Origin: an uncultured Ureaplasma sp.
GTDB lineage: Bacteria; Bacillota_I; Bacilli_A; Mycoplasmatales; Mycoplasmoidaceae
Assembly (NCBI GenBank): GCA_947039515.1
Contig: CAMQYY010000001.1
Location: forward strand, 1 to 64,000
Direction of reading: 5' to 3'
DNA length: 64,000 bases
Shown here: positions 15,683-31,023 of the stretch, piece after piece
How the letters are laid out: each line of letters starts with the position of its first letter
Numbering within the stretch: position 1 is the first letter of the stretch
The notes under the pieces: model-generated
Database searches by the model: none
Told to the model about the DNA's origin: nothing
The model's input: only the letters and a program-made list of their open reading frames with translations
Program-made: the position numbers and the translations under genes

Positions 15683-16576
15683 ATGGGTTGAAAGATAATA
15701 GATATTGAAAAAGAATGTTATTTAAAAATTTTTTTAGATAATTTAATTGTTATTAGAGATAAAAAAATATCAATTCCAATTACTGATATTGATACTATTA
15801 TTATTTGTAATAATAGAATCAATATTTCTGTTAATTTATTAAATGAATTATGTAGCAAAGGTGTTAATATTATTTTTTGTAATGATAAATTCATTCCCAA
15901 ATCATGTGTAGTTGGATTTAATGTAAAAAAACAAAGTCATAAAATTTTCTTAAATCAATTAAAATGAACAGATGACTTTAAATTTCAATGTTGAAAAATA
16001 ATTTTAATTAAAAAGATTTTAAATCAAATAAATTTTTTAAAAAAATATGGTTTAGATACTAATAATTGAGAACAAATCTTAGAATCTAAAGATATTGTTA
16101 ATGATAATACAGAAAGTCAAGTTGCAAATTTATTTTTTCATAGTTTATATGGTAGTCAATTCAATCGTGACTTAGATTGTGAAATTAATTATATTTTAAA
16201 TTTTGGTTATACTGTTTTAACATCAATGGTAACTAGAAGTATTATTAAAAAAGGGTTAAATCAGCATATTTCTTTTTTTCATGGAAGTGAATATTCACAA
16301 TTCCCTTTAGCTTATGACATAGTTGAACCATTTAGAATTATTGTTGATTTTTTTGTTAAAGAATTATTTGATAAAAAATATATTAGTATGAAAGATGTAT
16401 TTTTATCAAAACAAACTAAAGAATGTTTTTTAGATTATATAGCTAACTTTAAAATTATGATTGATGATAAATATCAATATTTAAATAATGCTATTGATAT
16501 TTATGTAGATTGAATTATTAAAGATGAATTGAAATTACATGATTTTAAAATAAACTTAGATGGAGAAATTATCTAA
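15683..16576 (+). CDS. cas1: CRISPR-associated integrase Cas1 (type II)
   Basis: 297 aa, usual size for type II Cas1. DNTESQVANLFFHSLYG carries the first metal-binding Glu; GLNQHISFFHG holds the His; and QFPLAYDIVEPFR carries the final Asp/Glu of the conserved helix. It integrates new spacers as a complex with Cas2. Starts at ATG 15683 behind AAAGGAATAAATTAAA. cas2 begins at the very end of cas1. First protein gene after tracrRNA; cas9 is not upstream as it would be in a standard II-A operon. Confidence 0.95.
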
Positions 16577-16577
16577 A

Positions 16578-16907
16578 ATGAGGAGCACTTATACATATAT
16601 GAGAATATTATTATTTTATGATTTACCCTTTGATAATAAAGCTGATACTAAACAATATACAAAATTTAGAAATAACCTTTTAAAACTTGGTTATACGTTA
16701 ATTCAATATTCAGTATATTCAAGAGTAGTTCAAACTAAATCAATGGTTGAACAACATATTAATAAAGTAAAGAAAATTTTACCTATTAATGGATCTGTTA
16801 GAGCTATTGTCTTAACAGAAAGACAATATAATGATATGTATATATTACGTGGAGAAGTTTTAGATAATGAAATTATTAATGATTGTAAAAGATATCGAAA
16901 AATATAA
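16578..16907 (+). CDS. cas2: CRISPR-associated protein Cas2
   Basis: 109 aa from ATG 16578 (MRSTYTYMRILLFYDLP), chosen because Cas2 proteins begin just before the MRxLLxFDLP strand and GGAG lies upstream; an in-frame ATG at 16560 overlapping cas1 is an alternative. Ferredoxin-like fold features: FYDLPFDN with the Asp, FRNNLLKLGYTLIQYSVYSR and VRAIVLTERQYNDMYIL. Structural partner of Cas1 in spacer acquisition. Confidence 0.95.
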   Translation: MRSTYTYMRILLFYDLPFDNKADTKQYTKFRNNLLKLGYTLIQYSVYSRVVQTKSMVEQHINKVKKILPINGSVRAIVLTERQYNDMYILRGEVLDNEIINDCKRYRKI

Positions 16908-16910
16908 ATT

Positions 16911-17630
16911 ATGAATAAAATAAATTTTAACTATTTTAATGAAGAAGAAATTGAAACTATTATTGAAAAATCAAAAATAAAAACAATGGACTATGCAACT
17001 ACTATTTCATTTAATTATTTAGATAACTACTATAATTTTGATTATCTTGGTATTAAAATAATAAAAAATGTTAATACAAATAAGTTAATAAGATCATTAT
17101 TAAATGATTATGAAATTAATAGCAATATCTCAATTAATAATCATCACGTTAAAAACAAAGATATTATAATCATTTCTCCATTTACTAAAATTAATGATAT
17201 TTTATCTTCTAAAACAAATGGTAATCTACATAATTTCTTAAAAGATGAGAAAGTTATTGATAGTAATTCAATCATTGAAAAAGCTATTACTAATGAATTT
17301 AACAAATTTACAATGATTGATGAACTAACTGATCTCAATTTATCAAAAGTAGATTTAATTAATTATTTAGATATAAATGATAATTTTGTTTCTGAAAAGA
17401 ATATTAAATTAATATTGAATATCTTAAAGAATACAACAAGTAAGAAACTTATCATTTTTAATGATGTTGAATATATTAAAATATCAGAACTAGATGAATA
17501 TATTTCATTTTTTAATTTTTTGTATGTTGTTAATGAATATGAAGAAAATTATAAAAATTTAATCGATTATAAATATTTCTTAATATTAGTTAAAAATAAT
17601 TTAATGTATGATCTTTTTTCTAAAAAATAG
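16911..17630 (+). CDS. csn2: Csn2-type protein, type II-A adaptation factor
   Basis: 239 aa, starting 4 nt after cas2. The second half follows Csn2 order: FNKFTMIDELTDLNLSKVDL, ILKNTTSKKLIIFNDVEYI, SELDEYISFFNFLYVV and DYKYFLILVKN, similar to the end of streptococcal Csn2. Csn2 forms a ring on DNA ends and is needed for spacer acquisition. Its presence assigns the locus to subtype II-A. No Walker A is evident, as expected for Csn2. Confidence 0.85.
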   Translation: MNKINFNYFNEEEIETIIEKSKIKTMDYATTISFNYLDNYYNFDYLGIKIIKNVNTNKLIRSLLNDYEINSNISINNHHVKNKDIIIISPFTKINDILSSKTNGNLHNFLKDEKVIDSNSIIEKAITNEFNKFTMIDELTDLNLSKVDLINYLDINDNFVSEKNIKLILNILKNTTSKKLIIFNDVEYIKISELDEYISFFNFLYVVNEYEENYKNLIDYKYFLILVKNNLMYDLFSKK

Positions 17631-17704
17631 ATAGAAAAATATGTTAAAATATAGTACTTTTAGCTTTATTTTGAAGAAGAAAAATTAAAAATTTCGAATT
17701 TTGG
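17631..17704 (+). promoter_or_regulatory. CRISPR leader
   Basis: 74-bp AT-rich stretch between the csn2 stop and the first repeat. Perfect repeats adjoin it and degenerate repeats are at the far end, which identifies this side as the leader and acquisition end. It contains TATAGT at 17651-17656 as a possible -10 element. Confidence 0.6.
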
Positions 17705-20700
17705 GTTTTTAATAAGTCAGATTCTTAATCAAGCTAAAACTATATATATAAAGAGTATTATAAAGGTATAGTTTTTAATAAGTCAGATTCTTAATCAAGC
17801 TAAAACATGAAAGGGCTAAATTAAAATGGGCAGAATGTTTTTAATAAGTCAGATTCTTAATCAAGCTAAAACAAATAATATATAAATATAGTAAGCAAAT
17901 GAGTTTTTAATAAGTCAGATTCTTAATCAAGCTAAAACCTAAAAATTGTTTACTATCTTTTAAACAGTGTTTTTAATAAGTCAGATTCTTAATCAAGCTA
18001 AAACTAGATTTGTTAATGTATTAAATCCAGCACAGTTTTTAATAAGTCAGATTCTTAATCAAGCTAAAACATTTAATAAAAAATATATTAATACTTCTGA
18101 GTTTTTAATAAGTCAGATTCTTAATCAAGCTAAAACTTTCCTTTAAGTTAAATACTTATATTATAAGTTTTTAATAAGTCAGATTCTTAATCAAGCTAAA
18201 ACTCTAGAAACCACAACTTTAAAGGTGCTAGGTTTTTAATAAGTCAGATTCTTAATCAAGCTAAAACAACGAAATAGACGCATATATTCAATATGATGTT
18301 TTTAATAAGTCAGATTCTTAATCAAGCTAAAACGGAAAAGAAAAGGTATTTATGGATTTTAATGTTTTTAATAAGTCAGATTCTTAATCAAGCTAAAACC
18401 GTCCTTATCTTCGGACCTTGTTCCACATAGTTTTTAATAAGTCAGATTCTTAATCAAGCTAAAACTCATATTCTGTTAGAATCTAATGTAATATTGTTTT
18501 TAATAAGTCAGATTCTTAATCAAGCTAAAACTATTTTAATTTTATCTTTTGATAATTCAACGTTTTTAATAAGTCAGATTCTTAATCAAGCTAAAACTAA
18601 TTGGATATGTTGCTAGCATATCAACATGTTTTTAATAAGTCAGATTCTTAATCAAGCTAAAACATAATACATTTACAGGAGAAAATACATTTAGTTTTTA
18701 ATAAGTCAGATTCTTAATCAAGCTAAAACAAATGTGCTTAATGTAAATTCTCTATATTCGTTTTTAATAAGTCAGATTCTTAATCAAGCTAAAACTATAT
18801 CTATGATATACCAACATAGCTCCACGTTTTTAATAAGTCAGATTCTTAATCAAGCTAAAACTTAAGGTTAGTAATACAATAATGTATATGTGTTTTTAAT
18901 AAGTCAGATTCTTAATCAAGCTAAAACATTAAAAAAGATTTACAATTTTTGATTAAAGTTTTTAATAAGTCAGATTCTTAATCAAGCTAAAACATCTAGA
19001 AACCACAACTCTAAAGGTGCTAGGTTTTTAATAAGTCAGATTCTTAATCAAGCTAAAACATTTTAAATTTGATTTTGATCCTTGCACTAGTTTTTAATAA
19101 GTCAGATTCTTAATCAAGCTAAAACACCGATGCTCTTCATCCCTAAAGCTTTACCGTTTTTAATAAGTCAGATTCTTAATCAAGCTAAAACAATAAAATT
19201 AAATATCTTTTAGGTAATAGCGTTTTTAATAAGTCAGATTCTTAATCAAGCTAAAACGAACTATTTTATTACCAGATTATTCAAGTGTTTTTAATAAGTC
19301 AGATTCTTAATCAAGCTAAAACAAATAAAAATTTATTTACAGAGGATGATATGTTTTTAATAAGTCAGATTCTTAATCAAGCTAAAACTATGTGTATCAG
19401 TCATAATCTCGTCATATCGTTTTTAATAAGTCAGATTCTTAATCAAGCTAAAACTAGCGAACTTAAATACAAAATATCGCAATTGTTTTTAATAAGTCAG
19501 ATTCTTAATCAAGCTAAAACTTAAAAACATTCAGCCCTGCTATTGAATTAGTTTTTAATAAGTCAGATTCTTAATCAAGCTAAAACCTATTGTCTCCATT
19601 TTAAAATATCTTAATCGTTTTTAATAAATCAGATTCTTAATCAAGCTAAAACTGTTATTAGAAATAAATTTTGTTGTTCCACGTTTTTAATAAGTCAGAT
19701 TCTTAATCAAGCTAAAACTATAGAAAGTATATTCAACTTTACCCCTAAGTTTTTAATAAGTCAGATTCTTAATCAAGCTAAAACATTCATAATGTATTTA
19801 TTGTTTATATGTTTTTAATAAGTCAGATTCTTAATCAAGCTAAAACGAACATCAATAAATTGTCTATGTCCCCTAAGTTTTTAATAAGTCAGATTCTTAA
19901 TCAAGCTAAAACATCTATAAATGAAAACTGAATTTGTATTAAGTTTTTAATAAGTCAGATTCTTAATCAAGCTAAAACGCCTCAACAACGAATATCGCAT
20001 TTAAACGAGTTTTTAATAAGTCAGATTCTTAATCAAGCTAAAACTTATGACGACCAAAAAGAGAAAGCGTTAATGTTTTTAATAAGTCAGATTCTTAATC
20101 AAGCTAAAACTTTAATCATTAATGATAAAAGAGATAAGAAGTTTTTAATAAGTCAGATTCTTAATCAAGCTAAAACTGTAGGACTTTATTTAGAGTTAGA
20201 AATAACGTTTTTAATAAGTCAGATTCTTAATCAAGCTAAAACAAATTTAACAACTGGAACAAGTAATTATATGTTTTTAATAAGTCAGATTCTTAATCAA
20301 GCTAAAACATTGTTGATACTTACCGAGTGAGTGATAATGTTTTTAATAAGTCAGATTCTTAATCAAGCTAAAACTATTTGATACATATTGTAAATATTCA
20401 CTGGGTTTTTAATAAGTCAGATTCTTAATCAAGCTAAAACTTTAGGTGTTCCTATTCCTATTCCGTTAAAGTTTTTAATAAGTCAGATTCTTAATCAAGC
20501 TAAAACCTTGAGTAAGGTATAAATATGAGTAATGTAGTTTTTAATAAGTCAGATTCTTAATCAAGCTAAAACGTTCATTTAATGAAAAGATTAAAAAAGA
20601 ATGTTTTTAATAAGTCAGATTCTTAATCAAGCTAAAACAACTCCCGGAAAATTCTCGTTAATATAATTGTTTTTAATAAGTCAGATTCTTAATCAAGCTA

Positions 20701-21099
20701 AAACGTTGAACGAATGAAGTTATTACCTGATGATGTTTTTAATAAGTCAGATTCTTAATCAAGCTAAAACTTTATATCCTTGTTCTTTTAAAACAACTAC
20801 GTTTTTAATAAGTCAGATTCTTAATCAAGCTAAAACTAGAATCACTTTAAAATGTCCTAAATGACTGTTTTTAATAAGTCAGATTCTTAATCAAGCTAAA
20901 ACTAATAAATATAATATTAATACTGACGTTATGTTTTTAATAAGTCGGATTCTTAATCAAGCTAAAACAGTCCATGAACTCTTATATCACTATGACTATT
21001 TTTTAATAAGTCAGATTCTTAATCAAGCTAAACTACATACTCTCTTGTTAATTATGTAATTACGTTTTTAATAAATCAGATTCTTAATCAAGCTAAAAT
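17705..21099 (+). CRISPR. CRISPR array, 52 repeats and 51 spacers
   Basis: 36-nt repeat beginning GTTTTTAATAAGTCAG and ending AATCAAGCTAAAAC, spacers nearly all 30 nt (period 66). Exceptions: 29-nt spacers before repeats 9 and 25, and before repeat 51 a 30-nt spacer followed by a damaged repeat; a 26-nt spacer before repeat 33. Variant repeats: number 30 (19617, G to A), 50 (20933, A to G), 51 (20999, first base T and one A lost) and 52 (21064, G to A and last C to T). Decay at the right end marks it as the old end. Transcription is left to right by tracrRNA complementarity. Spacers 8 and 20 are near-identical. Confidence 0.98.
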
Positions 21100-21125
21100 A
21101 TTGAAAAGTAAAAATGTAATTTATT

Positions 21126-24100
21126 TTAACTAATTTTGACAATATTTATTTTTTTAGAGTCCAATTTTGAAAAACTACTAAATGGTTTTCCTAGAATTTC
21201 TCTTTCTCCATCTATTCTTGTAAGAAATAATCTTTTATCTGTTTTATGACAACCTGTTATTCTATATAAAGAACCATCAATAGAATATATAGTTCCTATT
21301 TCTATAATATCAATAATTTTAGAACCATCATTATCAATTATTTTTTTACCTTCATTGAATCAATTTTCATTACGAAATTCTTTTTTACCTTCCTTGTTTT
21401 CAATTAAATAAATACATTTAGGAGTTAATCCTGTTATAAATGCATTATGAGAAATTTTTGATAAATTTATTCCACTTGATTTATTTCCATAAAATGTAAG
21501 TCTTGAAATATCTGCTTCCAAATTATTATCAATTATTTTTACACATCCTTTTAATCTAGCTATATTAAATTCTTTTTCATCACTATGATCATCCATATAT
21601 CTTATAAAGGGATTTGCTTTTGTATTGTTTTTATCATAATATTTGTTTCATATTTTTTGAAGTGATTCAAAATAATTATTAGGATTAAGACAAATGTTCT
21701 TGTCATATGGTTTTTCAAAAATAGCTTTTAATTGTGATATTTCAACATCTTTTAATTCCAATAAATGATAACGATCTTTAGTTCTTCCGTGTATATGACC
21801 ATATATTGTTTCATTAGATAATTTTTTAGGTGTTCATTTTTCTATTTCTTCTAATTTATCTTCAACTGTTTTTAACTTATTTAATTTACAAGAAGATTTA
21901 TGTGATAATCATCAATTAGATTTTGAAATACTTTTTGAAAGATTTTCTCATATTTCATGTTTAACTTTCGATTGATCAAAAATATCTATAGGTTTTCTGT
22001 CATTATAAAGTCATTTAGCTTCACCAGTTTCATCATCTATTGTTCTAATGAATGATTTTATTGTTTCTCTAAATTCATCTATTGTTCCTAAAACAGCACA
22101 AATAGAAGCATCGATACTATGATGTTCTGCTGAAATATTTCTATCTTTTTCTGGAAGATTTAAATATTTTTCTTTTCTTAATCTTTGAGTAACACTACCA
22201 CTTACAGTTATAATTTCTAAATCTTTTAACTTAATATAAATATTATTATCACTAATAAAATTTTGTTCCATATGAATTTTTCATGCTTCAAAAGCAATTT
22301 TAATTCTTCTCATAATATATTGAGTTTCAGTCAAATTACGAGCTATAAATGATCTTTCCTTCATAGAAAAATTATCCATTTCCATAAATTCTAATTTTTT
22401 ATGTTGTTCCTTTAGTATATCTTTTCATTGAATTTTCAAATCATTAAAATTAGATTTAGAAGATAATCACTCAATTGGTGTTTTATTTCCTTTACTACGA
22501 TTATTTTCAGTTTTGGTAATAACTTTGTTATCTTTACTATTATTTTGACTTCTAGATATTGGTAATATGTGATCAATTTCATAATTTGCAGGATTATTAA
22601 TAACATCTAATTCATTAATTGATTTACCATCATATAAATCTACACCTTCTTGTTTTCTTAGTAATATAATTTTTTCAATATTTACATCTTTAATAGAAGG
22701 ATGTTCTTTTTTAATTTCTTCTTTTTCTTTTTGGTTTCTTGTTTGTTCTTTTATAATTGTTTGATTATTTTCTAAACCATTTAAAGCGTATTTAGCATCA
22801 TCAGTTGTTTCAATGATAATTGCATCTAAATCATACATTGAACCATTATAAATATATTTTTTTAATACTTTATTTATTAGTTTACAACATTCACTCATAG
22901 TATTTTTAATATTTGGAGAAATAAAATCAACATTATCCATTAATCTGTTGTTTATATATTTACTATTATCTTTAAAGCTATATTGCTTCATTTCAAATGA
23001 ATTAGTTTGTTTTCTATAAAATGTTGACATTGATTTTGTATCATTAACATTCTTGTTGATATATTCCTTAAGTGCTAGTAATGAAAAAGTATGTGTCCCA
23101 CTAATATTATTTTTTTGGTAATTTTCAAGTTCTTTTGATATTGCTTCTTGACTCTTATTAGTATCATCTATTGGATTAAGACGACAATAAGCTTCATAAT
23201 TTTTAATTATTTTCTTTGTATCTTCTTTTTGAATTTTTGATATTGATAATTTATAGTCTTTATTAGCATTGATGATTTCATCTTTATTATAAAAGTGGAT
23301 TAAATGTTTCGATGTTAGTTTATCTACATAATAAATTTCTTCAATTGCTTTAGCAAAAGTAGTAAATATTAATATTTTTCTTTTATAAAGTCTGATTAAA
23401 TTTTCACATTTTTCAATGTTATGTTTTTTTCCATCTTTTGATTTAGGATAGTGTGTCAAACTATTTTTATCTAACTTTAATCAATTTATTATTCTAGTAT
23501 CAGTAGGTGCAGCAAGGTTTTTAATAACACATGCTATTACTTTTTCTTTTTGTTCAATTGTTAATTTTTCACCATGTATTTTCATTGAATTTAATTGTGA
23601 TAATAAATTAGCAATTTCTGGTAATGATTGGCATTTTAATGATCTTTGTTTTTCTGGATAAACTGGACATTTGCCAATAGATTCTTCTCATAAATTATTT
23701 ACTTGATGACCATCTTTTTTATATACACCATAATCAGTTTTTGATTTTTCACTTCCAGGACCTTGTGAAAAATCTCTTACTCTACTGAAAATACCATATT
23801 TGGTTTTAATATCTTCAGATTCATCATCTCCTAAAAAATCATTTTTAAAATTTGTACCTTTTAGATAAGAACAATTATCTATTATTCTTGCTAAGTCTTT
23901 TTTATTACGTTTAAGTGAAAACTGCAATGGAATTTTATTTTCACTTTTTTCTTCATCTTCTGAAATAACTCTTGCAGAAGGAGATCTTACTTTCTTATTT
24001 TTATTTAAAATATCTAATAATTCTTCTGCTACTGATATTTGTTTTTCATCTTCATTTGGCAAAGTAAAAGATACTCCTCTAAATGATAATTTAGAATATA

Positions 24101-24527
24101 ATACTTTAAATAGTTCTTGGGGTGTTAATTCACTTGTTAATCCTTTAACAGCTAATTCATAAATTGGATATGATATATTTTTTTCAATATTAGCATCAAA
24201 ATTAAATATTTCTTTATATTTTGGATTTGCTTTTCTAATTTCAGCTTTTTTATTTCCACTTTTTATTTCAGTGTCATTAATTAAAGATATGAAATCAAGT
24301 CTTCTTTGTTTTCTTCTTTGAATAGTTCTTCTTTGACGTCTTTTTTCACCTCTAGCACCTTGACCATATCCTCCTGGACTAGTTGGTGATTTTGGTTCTG
24401 ATAATATTTGAAATAAATGTGATTGACGATGAATAATTTTTTTAGTTTCTTTATCAACAACACTAATACCTACTGATGCAATACCTAAATCTAATCCAAT
24501 TATTAATTTTTTATTATTTTCACTCAT
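21126..24527 (-). CDS. cas9: CRISPR effector nuclease Cas9
   Basis: 1133 aa, compact, one frame with UGA-Trp. RuvC-I IIGLDLGIASVG (D13); Arg-rich bridge helix RGEKRRQRRTIQRRKQRR at about 60; RuvC-II DAIIIETTDD (E573); HNH YEIDHILPISRS (H653) and KTENNRSKGN; RuvC-III AEHHSIDASI (H803, D806). All catalytic residues are present, so it should be active. Start at ATG 24527 behind AAGGTAAT. It faces the array end to end (27 nt from the last repeat), separate from cas1-cas2-csn2. Its size is nearer to II-C Cas9s, but csn2 places the locus in II-A. PAM cannot be read from here. Confidence 0.97.
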
Positions 24528-24700: not shown

Positions 24701-24931
24701 TTAAACAAACTTTACAGCAGTTCCATACATAGCAGTTGAGTTATTAGATGTAGCAAAAAGTCTAACAGCAATAATAGCATCAGCTCCTAATTCTTCTGCT
24801 TCAGAAATTAGTTTATTTTTAACTTTTCTAATTTCCGTTTTAGCAAAAATACTTATAGTTCTATTCGCTGATACAAATCCAATTATTTCGTATTTTTTTC
24901 CTGGTATATTTTCAGATGTTATAACTAACAT
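24701..24931 (-). CDS. YbjQ/DUF74 family protein
   Basis: 76 aa, preceded by AAGGAGAAATAC. Family features in order: MLVITSENIPGKKYEIIGFV, a helix with IRKVKNKLISEAEELGADAIIAV, and a final strand MYGTAVKF. The pattern I..EA..LGADAIIAVR is the family hallmark. Pentameric fold; biochemical function unknown. Typical length 75-110 aa. Confidence 0.85.
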   Translation of the reverse strand: MLVITSENIPGKKYEIIGFVSANRTISIFAKTEIRKVKNKLISEAEELGADAIIAVRLFATSNNSTAMYGTAVKFV

Positions 24932-25022: not shown

Positions 25023-26264
25023 TTATTTATCTAACATTTTATATTCGTTGTATTTTATTAATGCATTAAAAAATGTTTCAATAATTTTAAGAATTATTTC
25101 TATTTCTTTTTTATGAATTCATCATCCTTCAAAATTTTCCAAATCATAATTATTTTTATGAATTGCATTATTTGTTATTGCACTACATAAATCTCAAACC
25201 TTTCACTCTTCTTTTGATAAAATTTTATTTTTAATAAAATCAATAATTTCACTATCTTTTTTTTGAAATTTAAAATTTTCAATATCTAAATCTTCAAATT
25301 TAGTATCCATAAAATAGATTGGGAGAGAAAAATATTTTTGTTTTTCATCAACTAATTTTATAGCTAATTTTATATATTCTTTTGAGGATAAATATATTTT
25401 TTTTATATTTTTTTTTATCTTTTCTTCAATTTCTTTCTCAATAGTTTTATTTGATTCATCTGGAATATTTATATTATTATTTTTTTCACATTCTAAACGG
25501 CTCAATAATAAATCTAATTCAGAAGAAATAGGAATAAAATAATCATCATATATAAAATCTAATATAGAATTTCTTAATATCCTCAAAGATCTTAATGCAT
25601 TTACAAAATCAGATTTTTTTATATTAAATTTAATAATTTCTATAACATCATGAATTCTTTTAGATGGATCTTTACCTAAGTTAGAAAAAATTTCTAAATT
25701 AAAAATTTCCTTTATTTTCTTTTCGATTCGAATATTAAAATCATTACTAAATGATTTAGAATTTAAAAAAATATTTTTGCTTTCATTGAAATCAAATTTA
25801 TAACTTATAAAATCTATAATTTTATTTTCAATCTTTTCTAGTTTTTCAATAATTTCTTGTTTTTTTAGAACACCATTTTCTATTTCAATATACGTTGATA
25901 TACATTTATTTTCATCAATTTTTTTATCAAATTCTACACAAAAAGAATTTGAAAAGGCAAAGGTCGATTTAGGACAATGGTATATATATTGTTTTGATTC
26001 ATCTATTCCTAAATAATTATGATTTTCTTTAAAATAGTAAATGATGCCTTTAAAATTAAGAAGTTCACATTCTTTTAAATCTTTTTCAATCAGTTGGTAT
26101 CTATTTAGAAATCCATTTTTTTGATAATTTGAAATATTATTTATAAATATTCATGAAAATATTATAAATTCTTTCTCTTTTCTTAAATCAGGATATATAT
26201 CTGAAATATAGCAAACTACATCGTTTATTTTTATAAATTTATTCTTAAATTTTTCTATTTTCAT
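25023..26264 (-). CDS. Unknown 413-aa protein
   Basis: I do not recognise it. No signal peptide or membrane segment. Charged and helix-rich in the C-terminal half, including a coiled-coil-like Lys/Glu run (KTIEKEIEEKIKKNIKK) and a final section with SAITNNAIHKNNYDLENFEGWW. The N-terminal third is more beta-like (VCYISDIY, STFAFSNSF). Start at ATG 26264. It shares orientation with the RuvC-like and GIY-YIG genes upstream (51 nt from the GIY-YIG 3' end), so it may be part of one transcription unit. Composition is as AT-rich as the rest of the region. Confidence 0.7.
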
Positions 26265-26314: not shown

Positions 26315-26786
26315 TTAATTATTACCTTGTGTTTTATTATATCCTCTAAATTTATTAGAACTTTTATATTTCTCTATAAACATTTTTTCTTTTTTGATTT
26401 AATTCTATTTCTGAACATTTATGAATAGTAACTTCAAATTGATCATTATATTTAAAATCAGCATAAACATCACCATTACCTTTTCCAGTAAAATGACATT
26501 TTACCCTTTTTAGTACAGTTTTTGATTGCCCTACATAGTAAAGCTCTTTTGTTTTATTTAAAATAATATAAATACCAGGGGAATCCATGCTTACAATAGA
26601 ACCATCTCTTCTTTTGGCTAAAGAATTATAATGATCTAGAAATTCATGAGCACTTTTAGTTATTGATTGATTTAACATTTCATCAATTTTTTGTTCTTGT
26701 GCTGCTTTTTCCTTGATATTATAAATAGCAAATAAAATAGCCCCTATTACAAATATAATAACAATGATAATTATTACTGCAGTCAT
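26315..26786 (-). pseudogene. Membrane-anchored GIY-YIG nuclease with a frameshift
   Basis: From ATG 26786: an N-terminal transmembrane helix (AVIIIIVIIFVIGAILFAI), a short linker, then a GIY-YIG domain: SPGIYIILN, ELYYVGQSKTVLKRV and FEVTIHKCSEIELNQ. The frame then meets A6-G-A6 (plus-strand T6 runs at 26383-26395) and stops at 26364 after YREI. One base out, the expected family ending continues: MFIEKYKSSNKFRGYNKTQGNN to a stop at 26315. One extra A in the first run explains it. It may be a pseudogene, a slippage-regulated gene or a sequencing error. It follows the RuvC-like gene by 31 nt. Confidence 0.8.
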
Positions 26787-26817: not shown

Positions 26818-28101
26818 TTATTTAGTATTATTTCAAATTTTATGAGACTTATTTACTATTAAAATTGCTTCAGCTTCATCATCATTATTAATATCAGTTA
26901 AATTATGAGATATTTTTTTAATCTTATTTGTTTTATCAAGTGAAAAAATATTATCTTTATTAGATTCATCAAAGATTGAATCATATTCAATATAATAAAC
27001 TCTTCAATCATGAGCATAGATAAGTTTTATTTCATATTTATTTTTAAGTTCATCTAATAAAATATTAAAAGTCTCAATAATAAAATCTCTTTGAATTATT
27101 TCTCTTTTTTCATCTTTCTTAAATTGAGGTATTTCTATAATAATTCTAATGAATGAATCTTTTTTAATATATTTATTAAAAAATTCTTTAATTTTTTCAT
27201 AAGGTTCAGAATTAGGTTTTAAATCGTTTAAATCATATCTTAGGTTTTTGCTATTAATATGATCAAAATAATCGATATCACTATTATCATTATTAGGGTA
27301 ATTTAAAAAAGCAAAACCTGTTTTTTTAAGTCCTAAGTCAATTCCAACATATGTAATATTATCTAAATTATCTTCTTCATCATATATTTTATCTTTATAG
27401 GTGTTTGATAGCAAATTTAATATTTCTGCTTCATTTGGTTCTGAAATATTTTTAAATGTTCTTCTAGTATTATTTTCATTTAAAAAGAATGGATTCCAAG
27501 CATTAGTTCAAATTAAATGAGCTTTATTAACTATTAAAGTTGCTTCATTATTCTTATTATTAAAATTATGATTATTATATCCATAATGGTTGATTCAACT
27601 ATTATGATTAATAATTTTGATTTGATTATTAATATCAATTTCATTTAATAAATTTTTAAAACTTTTAATAATTGTTAAAGTTGCTGCTTTTTCTTTACTT
27701 TGATCATTTTTTAAAGAAGGTAATTCTATTACTAATCTAATATTTGCATTAGGTTTAATATTCTTTTTAAGAACATCTTTTATTAATTCATATGGAAGTG
27801 AATTAGAATTGAATTCACTTCTAGTATATTGAATATTTTCATTAATAATATTATTGAAATTATCGATATTATTATCAATTATCTTATTTTGATTATTTCA
27901 AAAAGCAATATCTATTTTTTTTAATCATAAATCAATGGCAATATAAGTAATATTTTGGTTTTGATTTTCTTCATTAGTTAAATCTCTTATTTTAAGATTT
28001 TCTTGATTCAATAAAAATAATGGATCAAAAGTAGAATTTAGAACATAATTTCTAAATTCTTTTTCTTTACCTACTAATTTATTTTTTTTCTTTTTAGACA
28101 T
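26818..28101 (-). CDS. Tandem RuvC-like (RNase H fold) protein A
   Basis: 427 aa with two related halves. The second half has an intact RuvC-like active site: NITYVGIDLGLKKTGFAF (D255), IIIEIPQFK (E323) and NNDDEAEAILIVN (D407/D408, E409), plus a conserved W-x-x-YY element (DWRVYYIEYD). The first half keeps the frame of the fold but is damaged: IAIDLWLKKIDIAF, LVIELPSLK and NKNNEATLIVN. Start at MSKKKK (28101); a TTG at 28140 is less likely. A close paralogue lies upstream. RuvC resolvases work as dimers, so one chain may be a catalytic/inactive pseudodimer (inference). I do not know a named family. Confidence 0.75.
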
Positions 28102-28247
28102 ATTAATATTATAGATAAAAGGATTAATATAATAAATCAATTTATTATTAATTTATCCAATTAAAAGATAAAAAAATATCATAAAGACACATCTTAATAT
28201 CATTTACTATATTTTATTCAATATCTTTTATCTAGTAAATAATTATC

Positions 28248-29765
28248 TTAAAAGATAATATCATCTTCATAGTTTATGATATTTCTTGTTTTTCTTACAA
28301 TAATAGATTTTCTATTACTATTTCCTTTAGGTTTTTTATTCTTTAAATCTTTTCAAATATTTTCAGCTTCATTAACTATTAATCAAGCTTCAGCTTCATC
28401 ATCATTTTCTATATTAGTTATATCTTGAGCAATCTGCTTTAATTTCTTTCTATTCTTAGGAAAATTAGGATCATAATCAGAATTATTAAAAAACAAATCA
28501 TATTTTTCATAATATTTTCTTCAATTACTAGCTGGAATAGATTTTATTTTATTATTAAGATTAATTTTATTTAATAATTCTTTAAAGAATTTAAGAATTA
28601 TTTTACGATTTAATTCATCTTCTTTATTCTCTTTAAATTTAGATGTTTCTATAATAACTTTAACTGATGATTCTGGGTCAATATTTTCTTTAAGAAAATC
28701 TTCTATTTTTCTATAAGTATAATTCTTAGGATTTAATTCTTTCTTTAAATCATTATGGATAAAGTTAGTGCTTTCTATTTTCTTATATTTAGGTTTATCT
28801 GTTCTATGGTTTCAAATAGCAATACCAGTTCTTTTTAAACCTAAATCAATTCCAATATAGGTAATATTTTTATATTCTTCTTCTTGGAAATAATCTTTAT
28901 AATTTAGAGATAATAAATTATCTATTTCAACTTTAGTTGGAAAAGCAATATTTTTATAACATCATTTTGAAAATCTCTTTTGATATTCAAAAAATGGATT
29001 TCAAGGATTAATTCAAATTTGATCAATACTATTAGCTATTAAAACTGTTTCTGCTTCATTAACATTTTTAATATCAGTTAAATCTTTTGCAATTTTTTCT
29101 GTTTCTTGTTTTCTAATTAATGATTCTTCATCAAATCCTTGTTCATCTCATCATGTATTATAATGAGAAGGATAATACATTTTTCAAATACCAAAATTAA
29201 TAACTTTAATTTCATTATTAGTATTAATTTCATTAAACATTTTTTTAAATGTTTCAAGAACAGGAATAATAGTTAACTTTTCTTTTTCCTTCTTTTCTAA
29301 AAGTGGTCTTAACTTCTTTTCAAATAAATGAATATTAAGATTTGGACCTATTTCTTTAAGTTCATTACTTTGAGGATTAAAAGATGGTAGTTCTATTACA
29401 ACTCTTGAAATTGAATTTGCAGGAATGTTTTGTTTTAAATAACTTTTAATATGTTCATAATAATTAGAATTTGGTGTTAAATCATACCTATTATAATGAA
29501 AGTTTTTTTTAGTAATATGATCAAACTTTTCTTCATCATTATCAGATATTTCATCATTATCATTTCAAAAAGCAATATCAGTTCTTTCTAATCCAAGACG
29601 AATACCAATATATGTAATATTTTTACAATTAATTTCTTTTTTTGTTAATTCTCTTATTAAAAATTTTTCTTTGTTGAAAGAAAAAAGCGTATCAAAATTA
29701 GAATGTAAGAAATACCTCTTAAGCTCTTTTCCTCTTTTAATTATTTTTTTCTTATTTTTAGACAT
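28248..29765 (-). CDS. Tandem RuvC-like (RNase H fold) protein B
   Basis: 505 aa, same plan as its downstream neighbour. Half 1 is degenerate: NITYIGIRLGLERTDIAFW (catalytic Asp replaced by Arg), VVIELPSFN, NVNEAETVLIAN. Half 2 is intact: NITYIGIDLGLKRTGIAIW, VIIETSKFK, NDDEAEAWLIVNEAE, with SNWRKYYEKYD. A basic tail follows (KPKGNSNRKSIIVRKTR). Between the halves both proteins share NPWNPFF and a YKNI...E...LLS...YKD linker. Start at MSKNKKK (29765) or at ATG 29789. Both are downstream of tuf's end but separated by a terminator, and 3' neighbours are GIY-YIG and an unknown gene. Confidence 0.75.
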
Positions 29766-29794
29766 ATAAAAATTATAAATAAAATACATAAAAA

Positions 29795-29838: not shown

Positions 29839-31023
29839 TTATTTAATTATTTTAGTAATAGTTCCAGCACCAACAGTTTTTCCACCTTCTCTAATTGAGA
29901 ATTTAGAACCTAATTCAATAGCTACTGGTCTAATTAATTCAACTGTAATTGATGTATTATCACCAGGAAGAATCATATCTGAACCTTCTTTTAATTTAAT
30001 AGCACCTGTAACATCAGTTGTTCTAAAATAGAATTGTGGTCTATAACCATCCATAATTGGAGTGTGTCTTCCACCTTCTTCTTTTTTAAGAACATAGATT
30101 TCAGCTTCAACAATAGTATGAGGAGTAATTGATTTAGGTTTAGCTAATACTTGACCTCTTTCAACGTCTTCTTTTTTAACACCTCTTAATAAGATACCAG
30201 CGTTATCACCAGCTTCAGCATAGTCTAATTGTTTTCTAAACATTTCAATACCAGTTACAACAACTTTTTTAGTATCAGTTAATCCGATAATTTCAACTTC
30301 TTCATTAAGTTTTAATTGTCCTCTTTCAACTCTACCAGTTACAACAGTACCTCTACCAGAGATTGTAAAAACATCTTCAATAGCTAATAAGAATGGTTTA
30401 TCTTTTTCTCTTTCAGGAGTTGGGATATATGCATCAACTGCATCCATTAATTCATTAATATTTTTTTCATAAGCTTCATCACCTTGTAAAGCTTTAAGAG
30501 CAGAACCTCTAATGATTGGAGCATTATCACCATCAAATCCATATGATGATAATAATTCTCTAACTTCCATTTCAACTAATTCTTGCATTTCAGGGTCAGT
30601 CATAATATCACATTTGTTTAAGAATACTAAGATTTTAGGAACTCCTACTTGTCTTGCTAAAAGAATATGTTCTCTTGTTTGAGGCATAGGTCCGTCAGTT
30701 GCAGCAACAACTAAGATAGCTCCATCCATTTGAGCAGCACCAGTAATCATGTTTTTTACATAATCAGCATGTCCAGGACAATCAACGTGTGCATAATGTC
30801 TTGGTTCTGTTTCATATTCAACGTGAGCAGTATTAATAGTAATACCTCTTGCTTTTTCTTCAGGTGCTGAGTCAATAGCTGCATAACTCATTGCTTTAGA
30901 ATTCCCTTTTTTAGCTAAAACTGTACATATAGCAGCAGTTAAAGTAGTTTTACCATGGTCAATATGTCCTATAGTACCGATATTAACGTGAGTTTTACTT
31001 CTATCGAATTTTTGTTTTGCCAT
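29839..31023 (-). CDS. tuf: Translation elongation factor Tu
   Basis: 394 aa, standard length. GTPase motifs [10 protein letters not shown] (G1), [12 protein letters not shown] (G2), DCPGHADY (G3), NKCD (G4) and GSALKAL (G5), then domains 2 and 3 ending [16 protein letters not shown]. It delivers aminoacyl-tRNA to the ribosome. A GGAG ribosome site precedes the ATG, and a TATAAT lies on the minus strand at 31060-31055, so tuf has its own promoter besides possible read-through from fusA. Confidence 0.99.

Follow-up and report, generated by a model that had tools for sequence, protein, structure and literature searches.

A predicted lineage-specific variant of RuvC-type nucleases with a degenerate and an intact repeat in one chain, from a mollicute

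RuvC resolvases are symmetric homodimers that make a coordinated pair of cuts. Live-plus-dead pairings of nucleases are represented by XPF-ERCC1 and Mus81-Eme1, in which an inactive nuclease domain is kept beside an active one; their folds are unrelated to that of the two proteins described here (A and B), and they are cited as an analogy without any claim of homology. In cellular RuvC (PF02075, E. coli RuvC) two single-domain chains of ~170 aa pair as a homodimer with two live sites, whereas A and B, which share its catalytic layout and expected fold, have one predicted live site per chain of 427-505 aa. The phage RuvC-type resolvases (phrog_1770, phrog_159; bIL67 RuvC, PDB 4KTW, PMC3864405) have the same order of motifs at similar spacing; A and B differ from them in carrying two repeats per chain, the first of them inactivated, and in a Glu as the fourth acid of the C-terminal repeat in place of the usual Asp, and pairwise similarity to them is not significant. 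RuvX/YqgF (PF03652) has a first hairpin (GLDLG-K) resembling that of A and B, and the RuvX of the same genome, which is encoded separately, lacks the strand-4 Glu. The RuvC domain of Cas9, encoded at the neighbouring locus, has an RNase H fold as well, but other domains interrupt it and, unlike in A and B, it is not repeated in tandem, and a comparison by eye found no similarity past the first motif. The presence of several RNase H-like domains in one protein is common, as in the familiar example of the retroviral connection domain and RNase H (PMC3985635); these domains of the reverse transcriptase are a functional analogue of A and B from another RNase H family, and homology is not claimed. 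In the open-access literature we found no report of a tandem RuvC protein with one inactive copy.

The stretch of DNA analysed, referred to as the window, comprises 64,000 nucleotides from an uncultured Ureaplasma sp., and its features are compared with those of one MAG of a sister species, G003 (Table 1). Reading frames were translated with the mollicute code 4 (TGA = Trp), under which A and B are both open, and the boundary between the repeats was set just before the conserved WNPFF junction in each protein. The TATAAT boxes, whose TATAAT-N6-start arrangement was read by eye, resemble leaderless-type promoters and would suit separate leaderless transcripts for A and B; in a scan with a consensus promoter, matches were no more frequent than in shuffled sequence.

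Table 1. Features of the A/B region and the neighbouring CRISPR-Cas locus, in window coordinates.
Feature	Position	Strand	Basis or remark
cas1	15683-16576	+	Type II CRISPR-Cas locus (window 15683-24527)
cas2	16560-16907	+	Type II CRISPR-Cas locus
239-aa unassigned protein	16911-17630	+	csn2 position
CRISPR array	from 18032		~47 repeats, 66-bp period
cas9, 1133 aa	21126-24527		Strand opposite to cas1/cas2
YbjQ-like small protein	24701-24931		Between 413-aa protein and cas9
413-aa protein without family	25023-26264		Past GIY-YIG
GIY-YIG frame	26364-26786		Next gene past A
Protein A, 427 aa, two RuvC-like repeats	26818-28101	-	ORF under code 4; G003 orthologue 71% identical
A C-terminal repeat (aa 202-427), intact quartet D255/E323/D408/E411	26818-27498	-	phrog_159, E 8.7e-4
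A N-terminal repeat (aa 1-201), degenerate	27499-28101	-	Residue comparison
TATAAT box, exactly 6 nt upstream of A start codon	28108-28113	-	Sequence; same in G003
Protein B, 505 aa, two RuvC-like repeats	28248-29765	-	ORF under code 4; G003 orthologue 82% identical
B C-terminal repeat (aa 255-505), intact quartet D307/E373/D456/E459, then basic C-terminal tail	28248-29003	-	phrog_1770, E 3.9e-6 over aa 302-381
B N-terminal repeat (aa 1-254), inactivated	29004-29765	-	Residues; dN/dS 0.26 (CI 0.15-0.43)
TATAAT box, exactly 6 nt upstream of B ATG	29772-29777	-	Sequence; same in G003
tuf	29839-31023		B and A lie downstream, minus strand

Each protein had been described as two tandem RuvC-like repeats, and this is borne out, the repeats aligning over their full length. 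Local alignment of the N- with the C-terminal repeat gave scores of 268 for A (500 shuffles: mean 58, maximum 114) and 283 for B (500 shuffles: mean 51, maximum 92), placing the similarity 19-29 sd above the shuffles. In a tree of the repeats of A and B from the two species, the N repeats cluster together and the C repeats cluster together (support 100/99), indicating that the repeat arose within the gene before the gene itself was duplicated, and that both events preceded the species split. We propose an origin in a RuvC-like gene with a single domain, which underwent tandem duplication within its reading frame; the N-terminal copy would then have lost catalysis, and the fused gene would in turn have duplicated, giving A and B, a step that on the evidence of the tree preceded the split of the two known host species.

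All four C repeats (A and B, both species) keep GIDLG, IIE and NDDEAEA, the Asp lying in the first hairpin and the Glu at the end of strand 4, with W-x-x-Y following strand 5 and DDEAEA placed in the last helix; the four carboxylates stand in RuvC order and spacing in these repeats and not in the N repeats. The distance from the first Asp to the Glu is 66 residues in the C repeat of B and 68 in that of A, compared with 63 in bIL67 RuvC (ORF23), whose catalytic set is D8, E71, D145 and D149 (PMC3864405); the distance from the Glu to the Trp is 42, 43 and 40 residues, respectively, and that from Trp to Tyr is 3 in all. A spaced pattern, D ... E ... W-x-x-Y ... D-x(2,3)-[DE], which was devised after the sequences had been seen, matched only the C repeats of A and B and the c2-type phage RuvC among 404 distinct ORF frames, and was found in 1 of 200,000 shuffled C repeats; the N repeats fail its stricter form. 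The preliminary description held the first domain of both proteins to be dead and the second intact, which stands for the C repeats and for the N repeat of B, where R56 replaces the first Asp and N236 the third acid, E125, E239 and W-x-x-Y are kept, and ~26 aa are inserted after motif II. The N repeat of A is less dead than had been claimed: AIDLW was taken for a lost catalytic motif, but its D57 is the catalytic Asp and is still there, E126 and E186 are kept too, and the third acid is replaced by K183, with a stretch of ~30 residues deleted before that position. The N repeat of A in G003 has lost the Asp (GINLW), the Glu (LIKL) and the last acid (KNNSA), and no acid of the quartet is left in it.

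Searches of A and B against Pfam, NCBIfam and PADLOC returned no family above cut-off, in line with the preliminary remark that they could not be matched to a described family, and no match was obtained with the Pfam RuvC models (including PF02075) or with the c2-type phage RuvC families PF07066 and phrog_827. The RuvX/YqgF model PF03652 gave a sub-threshold match of 22 residues (E 0.12; 13.2 bits against a cut-off of 29.2). By comparison with PHROG, phrog_1770 (Holliday junction resolvase) and phrog_159 (RuvC-like resolvase) match all four proteins, with best E values of 3.9e-6 (B) and 5.4e-4, over a span that covers motifs I and II only. As controls on phrog_1770, E. coli RuvC reached a comparable 1.4e-5 and the DnaK of the same genome 0.059, and its RuvX did not match. 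The other match to phrog_1770 in the genome, C1:194804, is this DnaK and was rejected as an artefact of the GIDLG motif; because DnaK also matches the model through GIDLG, motif I by itself is weak evidence. Comparison of profiles with hhalign, in which the profiles are shallow, gave Prob 1.8 against the c2-type phage RuvC and 3.5 against E. coli RuvC and did not extend past motif I, and pairwise scores against either were not above those of the best shuffles. The kinship with RuvC that had been suggested is supported by the PHROG HMMs, by the motif spacing and by the RNase H-like order of secondary structure. The further suggestion of an undescribed system is not upheld, since the matches to phage-type resolvases in PHROG make A and B a branch, specific to this lineage, of a superfamily already known; the preliminary description had named a match to a described phage resolvase as a finding that would speak against its suggestion, and these HMMs provide a weak one.

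The AlphaFold models of A and B are of low confidence (mean pLDDT 46-48, pTM 0.32-0.34); at that confidence, strands and helices follow one another as in RNase H in both repeats, and the PDB fold matches of these models include both ASKHA ATPases and RuvC resolvases, among the latter phage 67 RuvC. For both models, NTPDase, exopolyphosphatase and ROK proteins head the PDB matches (best 8e-4 for A and 3.6e-3 for B), in keeping with an alternative in which A and B are two-domain actin-like (ASKHA) ATPases or sugar-kinase-like proteins. In ASKHA proteins, too, the chain comprises two domains of RNase H-like fold, and a D-x-G hairpin is present in each (the phosphate-1 and phosphate-2 motifs); the GIDLG hairpin of A and B is also found in DnaK. 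However, the C repeats conserve the strand-4 Glu and the last-helix DDEAEA, which are hallmarks of nucleases and not of ASKHA proteins, and the two repeats of A and B are clearly alike in sequence, as the halves of ASKHA proteins are not. No Pfam ASKHA family was matched and no adenosine motif was seen by eye, and the score of DnaK on the resolvase model is as low as reported above. The best viral fold matches are RuvC resolvases, Foldseek against a viral library placing a phage Holliday junction resolvase (6e-4) and a phage RuvC (7e-4) at the top for the B model. We regard the ASKHA alternative as distinctly improbable; the RuvC superfamily is the best assignment for A and B, with a two-domain ASKHA protein as its main structural rival.

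Among the genomes sampled, orthologues of A and B are present in G003 only, and they are absent from the others (99 relatives and samples of 298 genomes from the order, 395 from the class, 95 from the family and 392 from the phylum). Profile searches of the order, class, family and phylum samples returned just the two genomes that carry A and B (G000 and G003), besides borderline matches at chance level; of two BLAST-level scans of genome contigs, the first returned none and the second the sister MAG only, and BLAST-level searches of phages, plasmids and viral contigs found no relative. Both genomes carrying A and B are incomplete, and in G003 the junction between contigs C28 and C7 falls within the end of A. 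The gene order (YbjQ-like protein, 413-aa protein, GIY-YIG, A, B, tuf) is kept in G003, and other members of the genus have different genes downstream of tuf. The G003 island contains the YbjQ-like protein twice (L050 442-675 and 2699-2905), flanking a segment that differs between the genomes, and genes downstream of tuf may be turned over by recombination there.

The restriction to two species, the variability across the genus of the region downstream of tuf, a GIY-YIG neighbour that is frame-shifted in both genomes, and first domains that are degenerate, with still fewer acids in the A N repeat of G003, would all fit a resolvase gene of phage or mobile-element origin that has lost its function and is decaying. 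Selection argues otherwise. All four genes are open in the two species despite a difference of 9-14% at non-synonymous sites, the quartet of the C domains is invariant in all four, and dN/dS, computed between the window and the G003 orthologues, is 0.46 for A N, 0.42 for A C, 0.26 for B N and 0.40 for B C, with confidence intervals below 1 in every domain (upper limits for the inactive domains, 0.43 in B N and 0.73 in A N). The inactive N domains are under purifying selection (dN/dS 0.26-0.46), and a functionless remnant appears quite unlikely. The lowest dN/dS belongs to the N repeat of B, its difference from B C not being significant (bootstrap 0.09). Synonymous divergence is 0.29-0.33 for A and B against 0.09-0.16 in tuf and fusA, which may reflect codon bias in tuf and fusA or a separate history.

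The position of cas9 just past this block of genes, with cas1, cas2 and a long CRISPR array farther on, would suit a defence module in which A and B act with Cas9, for example in processing invader DNA or spacer intermediates. G003 speaks against this, as it has the whole block up to tuf with no cas9 detected in this incomplete MAG, either at the block or elsewhere in the genome. The same gene order without detectable cas9 suggests that the link is coincidental; moreover, other genus members with cas9 relatives have no A or B, and neither protein had a PADLOC match. A and B look not to be part of the Cas9 system, and we give a joint module very little credence. In one genus member, G005, a second cas9-like stretch with an in-frame TAA was noted (C35:2413-4089, L013), in addition to a longer cas9-like frame on another contig.

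A GIY-YIG gene does lie next door, as had been reported, but its frame is broken before the segment with the catalytic Glu. The frameshifts lie within homopolymer runs, and their positions differ between the window and G003 (L050 4351-4796, mid-gene); they represent decay, phase variation or assembly error; as the frame is shifted in both genomes, the gene is unlikely to be a working partner of A and B unless both shifts are assembly errors. The 413-aa protein next to A and B is 73% conserved in G003 (L050 2985-4211). An anti-phage nuclease pair independent of cas9, residing in a variable island and acting on phage replication or recombination intermediates, would account for the accessory distribution, the island setting and the fast evolution of A and B (dN 0.15 and 0.10, respectively, against 0.003 in tuf and 0.006 in fusA). 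It is nevertheless very doubtful, given that no known defence family was matched in PADLOC and that rapid evolution, which the adjacent 413-aa protein also shows, is no particular mark of defence genes.

Judged from their sequences, A and B represent a genuine variant of RuvC-type nucleases, specific to one lineage and unusual in joining a dead to a live repeat, with a predicted function. We lean towards reading them as paralogous, lineage-specific branched-DNA endonucleases of the RuvC superfamily that hold a dead and a live repeat in one chain. What we infer of their repeat packing, metal catalysis, nicking, substrate and biological role would be as follows. The two repeats of one chain would fold together as the two subunits of a RuvC dimer do; the four carboxylates of the C-terminal repeat would bind two metal ions and cut one strand beside the branch point, and the N-terminal repeat would serve as scaffold and DNA-binding partner, supplying the role of the second subunit. 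One polypeptide would nick, as the preliminary description had suggested, and two (A + A, B + B or A + B) would be needed for the paired cuts that resolve a Holliday junction. A more specific proposal, that a complex of A and B with two live and two dead RuvC sites nicks branched DNA asymmetrically and in a strand-specific way, as the bacterial equivalent of XPF-ERCC1 with a RuvC fold, seems unlikely to us. RecU is described as the Holliday junction resolvase of mollicutes (PMC3364216), and the genome encodes RecU and RuvX at other loci. Since the cell already has both, the role of A and B is probably accessory, in recombination or in the handling of foreign DNA. If the reading as dead-plus-live RuvC nucleases is true, a RuvC-type nuclease would be added to the mollicutes, the fused dead and live halves would be a natural test of the share of each half in binding or cutting, and it could be tested whether RuvC chemistry is convertible to controlled nicking.
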